Origin: Terriglobia bacterium
GTDB taxonomy: Bacteria; Acidobacteriota; Terriglobia; Bryobacterales; Bryobacteraceae
DNA length: 35,141 nucleotides
Reading direction: 5' to 3'
NCBI GenBank assembly: GCA_020073115.1
Contig: JAIQFU010000020.1
Span: forward strand, 14,541 to 49,681
Under the pieces are notes generated by a model. The model was given only the letters and a program-made list of their open reading frames with translations, was not told the DNA's origin and ran no database searches. The position numbers and the translations under genes were made by a program. Of this stretch, positions 13,417 through 29,520 are shown one piece after another; position 1 is the first letter of the stretch, and every line of letters begins with the position of its first letter.

Positions 13417-14661
13417 ACCGCCGGGCGTTTCTGCGAGGGGCCGCCGGGTGCGCCGCCGCGCTCCCCGCCGCCGCGCAGAGCGTTGTCAACAACCTTGAAC
13501 CGATGCGCATCACCCGCATCGACGCCGTCACGTTCCGACCGGAGATCCACGTGGGCGGCGGAGCGGGCGGCTCCGACAACGCCGAGTGGTGCTGGGTCCG
13601 GCTCCACACCGACAAGGGATTGATCGGGACGGGCGAAACCTACCCGTACCACCAGGGCGAGCTTGGCGCCTTGAAGGACTACGCCCGCAACATCCTGCGG
13701 CGCGACCCGCGCGATGTGGACGGCGTCTGGCGCAGTTTCTACGAGAACATGGTGATGCGCAACGCCGGCGGGTCCGACATGCGCATTCTCAGCGCCGTCA
13801 ATATGGCCCAGATGGACCTTCTGGGGCAGGCCGCGGGTCTGCCGCTTTACCGCCTGCTCGGCGGCAAGACGCGCCAGCGCGTCCGCGTGTACAACACCAC
13901 CACGGATTATTGGGCCATCAACGAAATGCGGATGGGCCGCGACACAATGAAGATCGTGGAGTTCCTGCTGGAGCGCGGCGTCACCGGGATGAAGATTTAT
14001 CCCTTCAGCGCGCCGGACCACTACCTGTCGAACGAGGCGCTGGAACGGGGCCTTGGCTGGATCCGCGAGATCCGCGACAAGGTGGGAAACCGGATGGATC
14101 TCTGCGTGGACCTGTGGGGGCGCTTCGATTTCCCCAGCGCTCTGCGCATCGCCAAGGCCCTGGAGCCGTACAACATCATGTACCTGGAAGACGCCATGCT
14201 GAACGGCAACGCGCGCGCCTATGCCCGCCTGGCGCGCGAGACCAGCGTCCCCATCTGCATGAGCGAAACGCTCGCCACGCGCTACGAATACCGCGAGTAC
14301 TTCGAACTGGAGGCGTGCGACGTGACGATGGTCGATCTCACCTGGTGCGGCGGGGTGAGCGAGGCCCGGCGCATCGCCGACATGGCCGACACGTATTTCA
14401 TCCCGCTTTCGCCGCATACCTGCGGGGGGGCCGCTGCTCTACATGTGTTCCGCGCACCTCTGCTCGGCCGTCCCCAATTTCCTCATCATGGAGAGCAACT
14501 ACTGGAAGTACACGCACCAGTTCCCGTACTTCGTCAACAACGTTCCCAAGCCGCAGAACGGGTCCGTTGCGCCGCCGGAACTCCCCGGCATCGGGGCGGA
14601 GATCAAGCCGGAGCTCTTCACGAACGGGGACGCGATCGTAGAGACGGTAGCGAAGGTGTAG
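13413..14661 (+). pseudogene. Enolase-superfamily (mandelate racemase-like) dehydratase with Tat leader, frameshifted
   Basis: This would be a 415-residue protein if the frame is repaired. The leader MNRRAFLRGAAGCAAAL is Tat-type. The N-terminal capping domain follows (AEWCWVRLHTDKGLIGTGE). The barrel carries GMKIYPF (Lys), metal ligands in LCVDLWGRFD (Asp), MYLEDAM (Glu) and CMSETLATR (Glu), and a late HTCGG histidine. This fits sugar-acid dehydratases such as the galactonate and mannonate types, with substrate unresolved. At 14424-14430 a run of seven G residues shifts the frame. With six, it reads HTCGGPLLYMCSAHL and continues to the TAG at 14659-14661. The ATG overlaps the deoC stop (ATGA), making it the fourth gene of the operon. 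The stop codon lies in a GTAGGACCG repeat border. Confidence 0.85.
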
Positions 14662-14721
14662 GACCGCCCTCCATCCGGCCGCGTCGGCTCCAGCTTGCCG
14701 GGGCTGGGCGAAGCCCGGCCC
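14658..14721. repeat. GTAGGACCG border and GC-rich hairpin
   Basis: GTAGGACCG at 14658-14666 includes the dehydratase stop codon and recurs at three other sites in the window. Downstream, GGGCTGGGC (14701-14709) pairs with GCCCGGCCC (14713-14721) around a GAA loop with one wobble. Both parts lie in the noncoding gap before the metallo-beta-lactamase-like gene and resemble a REP-type element that may also terminate transcription. Confidence 0.5.
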
Positions 14722-14741
14722 TACCCAGCCGTGAACCCGTT

Positions 14742-26498: not shown

Positions 26499-27431
26499 AT
26501 GGAGGGCATGCGTCGCGCGCTGCTCTTTTTGGCCGTCTTCCTGCCTCTTTCCGCCCAGGTGAAGTTCACCCGGGAGCCGGGCCGCATTCTGGTGGAGATT
26601 GATGGGAAGCCTTACTCCACCTTCTTTCTGGCGCCGGACGGCAATAAGCCGTACGTCTGGCCGCTGCGCACTGCCACGGGCCTCATCGTCACCCGCCGCT
26701 TTCCCATGGAAAAGTTTCCGGGCGAGACCAGCGACCACCCGCACCAGCGCGGCATGTTCTTTTCCCACGGGGACGTCAACGGCTACAACTTCTGGGCGAC
26801 GGAACCAGGATCGGGCATCCCCAAGATGGGCAGCATGGCTTTGAAAAAAGTAGAAGCCGTGGGGGGCGATCGATCGGGCCTAATTCACGCGGTATTCGAG
26901 GGGCGCGATCCCGCGGGCAAACCGATCATGGAAGAGACGCGCTCCATCACGTTCTATTCCGGGTCTCCGCTGCGCATCATCGACTACTAGATCGTGGTCA
27001 AGGCGCTCGACCCGCTCACGTTCGCCGATACCAAGGAAGGCACATTCGGAATTCGCCTGGCCCCATCCATGACGGAAGACAAGGGCGGGCGGATGGTGAA
27101 CGCGCAGGGCGCTGCGACGGAGAAGAACGTATGGGGGAAGCGGTCGGAGTGGGTGGACTGCTATGGGCCTGTGGAGGGGCAAACCGTCGGCGTCGCGGTG
27201 TTCGATCACCCCGCCAACCCGCGGCATCCCACGTATTGGCACGCCCGGGCATACGGGTTGCTGGCCGCGAATATTTTCGGGGTCCGGGACTTCACGGGAG
27301 ATAAGACGCAGAACGGCAGCATGAAGGTGGCGGCGGGAAAGTCGATCCGTTTCCGGTTTCGGGTAGTGGTCCACCCCGGGGATGCGCAGGCGGCGAAGAT
27401 CGCCGCGTTGTATCGGGAGTACGCGAAGTAG
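26499..27431 (+). pseudogene. DUF6807 (PmoA-like) secreted protein interrupted by an in-frame TAG
   Basis: The full frame is 310 residues with a signal peptide (MRRALLFLAVFLPLSAQ, starting at the second Met, 26508). Family features are GRILVEIDGKPYSTFFL, KPYVWPLRTATG, a DHPHQRGMFFSHGDVNGYNFW block with several histidines, and WVDCYGPVEGQTVGVAVFDH, then HARAYGLLAANIFG near the end. This matches DUF6807, misleadingly also named 'methane oxygenase PmoA'. Codon 164 (26988-26990) is TAG in LRIIDY-stop-IVVKALDP, where glutamine (CAG, one change away) or similar is expected. The frame continues without other damage to the TAG at 27429-27431, which lies in a GTAGGACCG repeat border. The function of the family is unknown. 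Confidence 0.85.
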
Positions 27432-27543
27432 GACCGAGTACCGCCGGTGGCCGGTTCTTGCCACCGGTTCTTTTGTCCGGCGGGCAAGGACAACCGGAGG
27501 CAAAGATCGACCACCGGCGGTACGGGCCGCGGCGCGGTCCTAC
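27428..27543. repeat. Composite inverted-repeat element carrying both flanking stop codons
   Basis: The ends are GTAGGACCG (27428-27436) and its exact complement CGGTCCTAC (27535-27543). Inside, 27438-27450 and 27511-27523 are perfect 13-base inverted copies (GTACCGCCGGTGG type), and TTGTCC/GGACAA (27473-27478, 27489-27494) forms a further hairpin. CCGGTTCTT occurs twice in the left half. The two TAG triplets in the ends are the stop codons of the DUF6807 gene (plus) and the heparinase-like gene (minus). Confidence 0.8.
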
Positions 27544-29474
27544 GTGATCCGCACCACCGACTTGCCCTGGCGCGGCGGGTTTTCCGCCCGCAGGAGAATC
27601 CGATACAGCCTGTCGCCCCAGACGCCCCTCAGCCGGGAATCCTCGATGGCGATCTCCTCCACCCTCGGGGTGAAGACGGCGCCGTCGTAGGCGACTTGAA
27701 CCGTGTCCGCGAGGCTCAGCTTACCTGGGCCTTCAATCGTCACCCGGCAGGGCGTCATGAACGTGAGCGTGATGTCCTTCGCCGGCTGCTTCAAGCCGTA
27801 TTCGTCCACCAGCTCGATTTCGTTTTTCTCACGGTCCAGCCGCAGGGTGCGGGTCCACCGCTCCAGGCCCGCTTCGGGCGGGTATGCGCCGGCGATGTTC
27901 AGGCTAAATGCGGCAACGGTTCCCGTTTTGTAGGAAACCTCGCTCGCGGCAAAGGCCCGCCCGGCGGCTTGCGTCACGCCGCCGATGGTGGGGCAGTTGT
28001 GAAACGCCGATTGCATCGTCCAGATTTCGTAGCGCTTCGAACTGAACGTTTGCGCGGTGTAAGTCCCCACCCCGACATCGACGATCGCGGGCTGCCCGTT
28101 GGAGAAAACGATGAAGTTGCCGACGTCATTGTGGTTGTGGCTCTCGCCGTTGTTCCCGCCCTGCGCGGCCAGGTACAGCCCCCGCGGCGATCCCTCCTCG
28201 ATGCGCGCCGCCATCACCTGGATCCCGGGCAGCCAGGCGTCGCGCAACAGGGCCTGTTCCCGCTTCGCCTGGCGCAGCGCGGCGAGGTTGAACAGGGCGG
28301 GCAACTGGCGGCTGATGCTGTCGCCGGGGATGCCGCGCGGGTCGCGCAGGAAGGCGGCGAACGCGCCGTGGGCCATCATCGTCTGGTCGCCGATGCGCTT
28401 GCCGTACCGATAGATCAGGTCGCCGTTGACGGAAACGCGCGCGGGCGCGTCCGCGAAGTTCGTGTACCACTCGTTATGAATATGAGTCCGGCAGATATAC
28501 CGCCCGATTTCGCCGATCAGCGGCGCCTGATACGCGTCGAGCGCCCCAGCGCTGGCCTCGCGCAGAGTCTCCAGGCAGTCGAACAGCGATGCGCCGGCGC
28601 GCCCCCAATAGCTGGGGCCCTCGTCGCAGCCGCCGTCGTCGGCATAGCCGTTGAGGAAGGCATCGAGGCACCGGACCGCCTTGTACGCGGCCGCGTCGCG
28701 GCGTTTCGCGTCCCGCTCCGTCAGCAGCGCGCACACCAGCCAGTTGGAGCAAATCCACGGGTCCCAATTGTTCACCGACTGGCCGGAAAGTCCCATCCAA
28801 CTGAAATCGCGCTCCAGGCAGGGAGCGAGCATACGGCGGTCGATCTCCAGGCGGATGCGCTCGGGAATCAGGGGCGAAACCTTCGCCAACCCGAGGCCCA
28901 CGAGGTAGGCCGTCCACGCCAGGAGACTGGCCGTTTCGGCGGCGAACAGATCGACGATGGGCTCGGTCACGTCGGGCAGCCCCACGCCCGCTTTCTGCGC
29001 CCCCAGATGCGCGGGCACCCCCCAGAACGATTCCTCGCAGGTGAGCCAGACGCCGTTGGCGATTTCGTCCAGGAAATTGCCCCGTCCTTCGATGCACTCG
29101 GCCAAAACCAACTGCTGCAGCTTGTTCCGGCGCCGGTCGCGCATTCCCTCGAAATGCGAACGATTGCCGGCCCGCTGATATTCGAGGAAAGCAGCGGCGG
29201 GCAGGACCTCCCACGCCGTTTGCAGTTGCCTGTCTCCGGATTCCCGCAGGGCGGTGCGGGCATCCGCCGGAAGCGCATCCCAGCGGGTGCGCTCGGCGGC
29301 GGAAGGATACGGCCGGAATCCGCCTCCCGCCTGTAGGGCGGCGGATATGCGTTCGGGAGTCCACGTAGAGGCGAGGAGGTTGCGCTTCCCTCCGGTCTGC
29401 GCTCCGGCGGGCGCCATGGCGGCGGGCAACGCCGCGGAACCCGCTACGAAAGCTCGCCGGCTGAAGTGAGGCAT
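27540..29474 (-). CDS. Heparinase II/III-like protein with Tat leader
   Basis: This 644-residue protein has the leader MPHFSRRAFVAGSAALPAAM (SRRAFV, Tat-type). An alpha-helical toroid domain follows at residues about 60-400 (LLAWTAYLVGLGLAKVSPL, MGLSGQSVNNWDPWICSNWL, DGGCDEGPSYWGRAGASLFD, where the Tyr and Trp fit the family active site). The C-terminal beta-sheet domain contains GGNNGESHNHNDVGNFIVFS and PAIVDVGVGTYTAQTFSSKR, the heparinase II/III metal/His region. These proteins cleave uronic-acid polysaccharides by beta-elimination, giving unsaturated uronides. That would feed the nearby sugar-acid enzymes, though the actual polymer is unknown. In-frame ATGs at 29492 and 29510 exist. I chose 29474 because it places the arginine pair normally. 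Confidence 0.85.
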   Translation of the reverse strand: MPHFSRRAFVAGSAALPAAMAPAGAQTGGKRNLLASTWTPERISAALQAGGGFRPYPSAAERTRWDALPADARTALRESGDRQLQTAWEVLPAAAFLEYQRAGNRSHFEGMRDRRRNKLQQLVLAECIEGRGNFLDEIANGVWLTCEESFWGVPAHLGAQKAGVGLPDVTEPIVDLFAAETASLLAWTAYLVGLGLAKVSPLIPERIRLEIDRRMLAPCLERDFSWMGLSGQSVNNWDPWICSNWLVCALLTERDAKRRDAAAYKAVRCLDAFLNGYADDGGCDEGPSYWGRAGASLFDCLETLREASAGALDAYQAPLIGEIGRYICRTHIHNEWYTNFADAPARVSVNGDLIYRYGKRIGDQTMMAHGAFAAFLRDPRGIPGDSISRQLPALFNLAALRQAKREQALLRDAWLPGIQVMAARIEEGSPRGLYLAAQGGNNGESHNHNDVGNFIVFSNGQPAIVDVGVGTYTAQTFSSKRYEIWTMQSAFHNCPTIGGVTQAAGRAFAASEVSYKTGTVAAFSLNIAGAYPPEAGLERWTRTLRLDREKNEIELVDEYGLKQPAKDITLTFMTPCRVTIEGPGKLSLADTVQVAYDGAVFTPRVEEIAIEDSRLRGVWGDRLYRILLRAENPPRQGKSVVRIT

Positions 29475-29520
29475 GACTAGGTTGTACCGCATGTGCGGGG
29501 CCCCGGGCACAACTCCGCCA

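Follow-up and report, generated by a model that had tools for sequence, protein, structure and literature searches.

A probable hybrid of two REP-like repeats between two convergent genes of a Terriglobia bacterium and a repeat family lying close against gene ends

The locus

The window, a stretch of 35,141 nucleotides from the genome of a Terriglobia bacterium, contains two convergent genes, one on the plus strand for a DUF6807 protein and one on the minus strand for a heparinase-like protein, which are separated by a structured region of 116 bp (Table 1). The nearest relatives of the heparinase-like protein in a genome contig database are labelled Acidobacteriota, Bryobacterales or Solibacteraceae. 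Inside the DUF6807 gene there is an in-frame TAG at a position that is occupied by Glu in the orthologues of the relatives G002 and G003 (IDYEIE), and this TAG represents either a nonsense change or a sequencing error.

The 9-base ends of the 116-bp region (GTAGGACCG and CGGTCCTAC) match perfectly, and the same is true for the 13-base inner arms (GTACCGCCGGTGG at 27438-27450 and CCACCGGCGGTAC at 27511-27523), which in a repeat search extend to 32 nt with 84% complementarity. Both pairs of perfect arms had been pointed out in a preliminary description of this DNA and were found exactly, as was its observation that the TAG in each end is the stop codon of the adjoining gene. Folded as RNA the region reaches a z-score of −7.5 and folded as DNA a z-score of −5.5, and in neither case did any of 200 shuffled sequences fold as well. 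The right GTAG-headed part alone, read on the minus strand, folds into a small hairpin of −7.6 kcal/mol.

Table 1. Features of the repeat and of the two genes converging on it
Feature	Position	Strand	Remarks
C-terminal part of DUF6807 gene (PF14100)	26994-27431	+	3' of in-frame TAG 26988-26990
Whole composite: GTAG-headed ends enclosing a GTAC-headed inverted REP-like pair, amid two convergent genes	27428-27543	.	From arms, fold and palindrome searches
Left GTAG head/arm GTAGGACCG	27428-27436	+	TAG 27429-27431 is the stop codon of the DUF6807 gene
Inner element: REP-like hairpin and its inverted copy, GTAC at each terminus	27438-27523	.	86 bp; 80 genomic copies analysed
Left REP-like hairpin CCGGTGG-N10-CCACCGG	27444-27467	+	Followed by T-rich tract 27468-27474
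Right REP-like hairpin, one mismatch	27494-27517	-	Faces the heparinase-like gene
Right GTAG-headed part, GTAGGACCGCGCCGCGGCCC on the minus strand	27524-27543	-	TAG 27540-27542 is the stop codon of the heparinase-like gene
Hepar_II_III_C protein (PF07940), 656 aa as read	27540-29510	-	Converges on the element

Two repeats apparently combined

The 116 bp apparently do not constitute a single element but two repeats combined: the inner 86 bp belong to a dispersed family, and the outer arms match a second palindrome. Of the earlier view of the region as an inverted-repeat element, its nature as an insertion-type repeat, here with many copies, is retained, but in place of one element there appear to be two.

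A BLAST search of the own genome, for which 131 bases around the feature served as query, yielded at least 81 matches on both strands (best 40 of 260 candidates scored), most of which, again among the best 40 of 260, span positions 17-104 of the query, corresponding to the inner unit, and a few of which are somewhat longer, e.g. 4-104 or 12-115. With a covariance model made from an alignment of 22 copies at least 150 matches at 80 or more places were found in the own genome, so that the search for other insertions that had been recommended could be carried through with 80 analysed copies of the inner unit, namely 80 places of the model minus L192, which is cut by a contig end, plus the copy L114:1781-1859 at a transposase locus described below. 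The unit extends from GTAC to GTAC and consists of two inverted halves. The CCGGTGG/CCACCGG hairpin is found in 130 of the 160 halves and is followed by a T-rich tract (5.5 T per 10 nt versus 1.8 expected). With its short hairpins, its many intergenic copies (70 of 80 called intergenic) and its inverted pairing, the inner unit has the properties of REP/BIME sequences, and the 116-bp element belongs to this known class of bacterial repeats, its main, inner family being unusually tight against gene ends. It is not of the GTAG type, which is defined by a GTAG or GT[A/G]G head, as its consensus head is GTAC, and a few copies carry GTAG heads (e.g. L150 at both ends, L186 at one). In the flanks of the 80 copies 2 bases are shared in three cases and 4 bases in one, 3 or 5-9 bases in none, and there is no convincing target duplication. 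Among 60 relatives the covariance model at E values up to 1e-4 matched only in G002, G003, G023 and G033, in all of them weakly, and the matches read in some of these relatives consist of inverted pairs with GTAG or GTAA heads, built like the inner unit. An exact pattern of the inner unit with 30 specified bases returned no named genome from the genome contig database, in a search from which the records of the own genome were possibly excluded.

Are the outer arms a repeat in their own right? The 9-mer GTAGGACCG alone is not enriched (92 matches versus 316 for the reversed control), and the outer arms do not exceed 7 in any of the 78 other inner-type copies that were examined. Shuffling of the flanks yields a probability of 0.0019 per copy for an outer arm of at least 9, equivalent to 0.15 such arms expected among 79 copies. 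While flank shuffling alone makes the arms unremarkable, they are counted as a repeat on the basis of a palindrome search, in which GTAGGACCG-N-CGGTCCTAC was found at three further places and the control at none. Thirteen distinct GTAGGRCCG..CGGYCCTAC palindromes were collected from a sample comprising the loci with GTAGGACCG (30 of the 92 matches and the 3 places of the palindrome search) and further own-genome loci, and in 9 of the 13 at least one called gene ends with the TAG of GTAG, as do the called genes on both sides at L361. Since 432 kb of own sequence not selected for the motif contain just two such palindromes, neither of them beside a called stop codon, the GTAG family is modest in size and the thirteen are a selected sample. 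The outer ends therefore show what distinguishes GTAG-type REPs, a GTAG head followed by a palindrome that is repeated in the genome, with few copies. Joined to each other, the outer parts of the window locus fold as a 9-bp stem. As GTAG is no more frequent beside inner-type copies than at control gene ends (18 of 160 sides versus 60 of 294), the combination at this locus is untypical of the inner family.

Position of the repeats relative to stop codons

Genes were called by codon usage, and the distance counts do not include the 10 of 80 copies that were called inside open frames. The 70 intergenic copies lie between convergent (26), tandem (33) or divergent genes (3) or have one side uncalled (8). 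Of the 90 stop codons that face a copy, 74 are situated within −4 to +8 nt of its core, 58 of them at 0 to +8, and with stricter gene calls the proportion of close stops is 70/88 or 59/73. If insertion were uniform over intergenic bases 3.8% of the facing stops would be expected within 0 to +8, and 23% if each gap is weighted equally, both nulls covering the range of 0 to +8 alone and using element-free pairs from 432 kb of own sequence, which were filtered by exact 10-mers and may still comprise a few degenerate copies. For convergent pairs a residual gap of 16 nt or less was found in 18 of 26 with an element, one of the 18 being a doubtful overlap of −59, versus 8 of 47 without (p = 2e-5).

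The stop codons next to inner-type copies are TAG in 34, TGA in 27 and TAA in 13 of 74 cases, compared to 102, 129 and 63 among 294 stops of the genome (chi-square, p = 0.20), and the suggestion that the element targets TAG stop codons thus found no support. The companion idea, that the ends of the element carry stop codons, fared better, as the TAG of the outer type serves as called stop in 9 of the 13 sampled palindromes and the inner family adjoins stops on 74 of 90 sides. In 33 of the 74 cases the terminal A-GTAC of the inner unit fits a completed stop codon, with 13 TAG at position −1 and 15 TGA and 5 TAA at position 0. A weaker trend is seen for 15 GTAG-headed pairs of relatives, of whose 22 facing sides 6 have the stop within −4 to +8 and 13 within −4 to +20. 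In the relative G033 two GTAG/GTAA-headed inverted pairs (L096:1503-1579 and L104:1503-1600) contain the called stops of both convergent genes inside their head tetranucleotides.

Gene ends compared to element-free orthologues

If a repeat replaced the end of a gene, orthologues lacking the repeat should end differently. HypE, whose stop codon overlaps an inner-type element, has LPRIC as its C-terminus here as in each of the 7 relatives read. RlmI, which abuts an inner-type copy, terminates with LILEVM both here and in G003, and 11 of 12 relatives read end at about this position; both numbers refer to relatives read in the right orientation only. A comparison with G003, for which 912,522 bases of this genome were used, gave differences of 0, +2, 0, 0, −1 and +19 residues for six further genes abutting inner-type copies and of 0 residues for a seventh gene with its stop 62 nt away from the element. 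Taken together, 7 of the 8 genes abutting an inner-family copy end within 2 residues of the nearest element-free orthologue read, which suggests that inner-family copies have mostly not replaced gene ends.

For the outer type the picture is slightly different. At the 116-bp locus 28 of 30 rows for orthologues of the heparinase-like protein (23 of 25 once duplicate genomes are removed) show a longer protein, as do 17 of 19 for DUF6807, usually by two residues in either case. At L357 the gene with a GTAG end lacks six residues relative to its orthologue in G003. In this small sample of three GTAG-ended genes the proteins are thus 2, 2 and 6 residues shorter than their orthologues. The proposal that the element took over the ends of the genes together with stops of its own consequently finds mild support only at the 116-bp locus, where both proteins end about two residues before most orthologues, next to the shortened gene at L357, but not for HypE and RlmI, which end as their element-free orthologues do. 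Of the two observations that were to speak against the repeat as a supplier of stops, one was made, as orthologues without the repeat end within a few residues, whereas the other, absence of further copies from the genome, is contradicted by their abundance. A syntenic site without the element did not turn up: G001-G003, the closest relatives, have no match to the heparinase-like protein, and by eye the end of the other gene is missing from the 300-400 nt read downstream of the single genes of G002, G003 and G030.

A transposase gene flanked by copies of the inner family

The genome contains ten matches to Y1_Tnp, nine of them above cut-off, and only one of the ten loci, L114, has elements nearby, the other nine having none. 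At L114 two elements (1173-1262 and 1781-1859) lie directly around the gene (1270-1815), the last codons and stop codon of which are located inside the downstream element, and a third element is found at 2595-2686. With copies flanking a Y1/HUH transposase gene the inner family can be considered RAYT-associated. The L114 gene scores 31 bits with PF01797 (cut-off 23), matches the E. coli TnpAREP 4er8 with an E value of 1.4e-4 and reaches 68 bits with the NCBIfam REP transposase model, which is below the cut-off of 80. In its sequence NHVH is kept, but the position of the catalytic tyrosine is occupied by Cys and NP is missing, so that it does not have the hallmarks of an active RAYT. Eight of ten relatives, all but L276 and L281, could be compared in the correct frame, and every one of the eight has kept the catalytic tyrosine. 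Because of the Cys at the tyrosine position, the missing NP and the retention of the tyrosine in relatives, the L114 RAYT is probably inactive. As the RAYT that is flanked by the copies looks dead and remains below the NCBIfam cut-off, the inner family may not be mobile at present. RAYT-related genes occur in 25 of 61 genomes, the own one included, with the best relatives in G003, G033 and G023. By eye, the RAYT-like genes of relatives at L275, L278, L279 and L280 likewise end inside a flanking repeat.

Proposed origin and role

We consider it quite probable that the element is a hybrid BIME, in which an inverted pair of GTAC-headed REP-like units, whose family was probably spread by a RAYT of the Y1/HUH type, is placed inside, or adjoining, a short GTAG-headed REP that provides the TAG stop codons of both genes, and for which we propose a role as stop plus terminator. 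Since the combination and the positions of the stop codons are observed and we only infer the order of insertion (inner into outer), the GTAC unit is best described as having entered, or lying beside, the GTAG REP. Briefly, a RAYT would have distributed the inner units through the genome, and one GTAC unit would have been inserted into a GTAG-headed REP. At a gene end the terminal A-GTAC or GTAG could complete a stop codon, as T-AG, TG-A or TA-A, or provide TAG outright. As each inner half consists of a GC hairpin and then a T-rich tract, the pair could act as back-to-back terminator. Insertion at gene ends would be harmless to both genes, both transcripts ending right after the stop codons, and most copies landing elsewhere in genes would disappear, tight intergenic copies being retained.

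A role of the composite as RAYT-spread back-to-back terminator or insulator appears likely from the arrangement of its parts. A scan for terminator-like sites between 26800 and 28200 detected two overlapping sites on the plus strand, no better than the 1.3 ± 1.2 of shuffled sequences, and none on the minus strand. The T-tract, being part of a long inverted repeat, may also be kept for pairing alone. As a more far-reaching and quite tentative idea, the inner family might be a REP family with stop-codon-cassette termini, in which A-GTAC completes a stop codon in either orientation and each side has a hairpin and a T-tract, so that the copies would be portable stop-terminator insulators installed at, or selected for, gene ends. 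If this were true, an insertion at a gene end would regenerate stop and terminator for both convergent genes.

Other explanations have to be weighed against the hybrid BIME. The tight spacing could reflect active positioning, the transposition machinery inserting the repeat at stop codons or at gene-end sequences (terminator hairpins, for instance, or a target resembling TAG/TGA), instead of selection of harmless copies. The distances, with 74 of 90 stops within −4 to +8 nt, are far tighter than uniform intergenic insertion would produce and the fit of A-GTAC to a completed stop in 33 of 74 cases points in the same direction, but the identity of the stops is without significant bias, both stops are near in 18 of the 26 convergent pairs, which is unexpected if one stop alone were targeted, and the cleavage sites named in the excerpted text of a study of TnpAREP recognition, CT and CA (PMC8266576), are not stop codons, so that we regard active positioning as possible but rather unlikely. 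The outer arms for their part could match by chance or form a native terminator hairpin found nowhere else, with only the inner unit mobile, as would agree with the lack of long arms in the other 78 copies and the 0.15 arms of 9 or more expected among 79, with the unenriched 9-mer and with the 9-bp stem of the joined outer parts. This explanation, suggested by flank shuffling, was made improbable by the palindrome search with its three further identical-arm palindromes and a control of 0, and by the 13 variant GTAG palindromes, 9 of which have TAG as stop.

Perfect terminal arms and many dispersed copies could also be expected of a MITE derived from a DDE insertion sequence with the 13-base arms as terminal inverted repeats. 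An IS-derived MITE was rejected as candidate, since the 80 copies show no convincing target-site duplication, and it becomes very improbable considering that most halves hold an internal hairpin, that copies flank a Y1/HUH transposase gene and that GTAG-headed pairs of the same plan exist in some relatives. Least probable of all, in spite of the strong RNA fold, is a transcribed regulatory RNA between the genes, be it an sRNA or a riboswitch-like structure: at E values up to 1 there are four Rfam matches, all of them to microRNA precursor models and far below the gathering scores, no promoter-like site was detected within 26800-28200, and none of the 22 predicted pairs has changed on both sides in the 22-copy alignment.

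Relation to known repeats

How does the hybrid BIME compare to known repeats? The principle that REP ends often supply TAG stop codons is already known, as stop-supplying GTAG ends are in print (Di Nocera et al., 2013; PMC3733652), and what is added here is the unusually strong positional bias and the particular family. Hybrid dimers of different GTAG families have been reported for S. maltophilia (PMC3733652). The window locus shares the GTAG head, the short palindrome, the inverted dimers and the sites between convergent and unidirectional genes with the GTAG-type REPs and dimers as described in the excerpts of that study, and is unlike them in the GTAC heads of the inner family and in the two families combined at the locus. 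The inner family is also tighter at stops than the 15 sampled GTAG pairs of relatives (6 of 22 sides within −4 to +8). In E. coli, REPs near stop codons number 446 of 4,072 according to RepRanger, or 260 of 496 in an earlier study (PMC12306157), and for REPs within 15 nt of the stop ribosome stalling and reduced translation have been reported (PMC12306157, citing its reference 17). Closeness of the REP to the stop codon is common to both systems, whereas the inner family differs from the E. coli REPs, as far as the excerpts of PMC12306157 describe these, in having 74 of its 90 facing stops at −4 to +8 nt.

Inverted REPs flank RAYT genes, many of them sitting just after the rayt stop codon or in its close vicinity (Nunvar et al., 2010; PMC2817692), and the Y1 gene at L114, directly flanked by two copies of which the downstream one holds the stop, resembles this arrangement. 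Unlike the RAYTs in the excerpts of that paper, it is without catalytic Tyr and NP and below the NCBIfam cut-off. Class 3 TnpA-Y1 proteins are found in Acidobacteria among others, together with high-copy DNA structures, about 600 of them in Solibacter usitatus (Quentin et al., 2018; PMC6006769). The occurrence in Acidobacteria and the high-copy structures with Y1 genes are the points in which L114 may be likened to this class, as the excerpts present it. In open-access literature text neither the particular inner family nor an equally tight stop bias turned up. The odd sequence of the 116 bp is explained as combination of two REP-like families, and the 74 of 90 stops within −4 to +8 nt constitute a quantified case of repeats that lie tightly against the stop codons of both genes of a convergent pair. 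With such figures one can test whether REPs persist as stop-plus-terminator units or reach these places by target choice.

Longer GTAG palindromes exist as well. A 68-bp form with a third, inner hairpin similar to CGCGACA..TGTCGCG occurs at L357:700-767, L361:1442-1509, L369:1442-1509 and L381:1501-1568, which suggests a composite subfamily. Within the window itself another GTAG-type palindrome with a longer middle is situated at 14658-14724, beyond the domain of an enolase-like (MR_MLE) gene.
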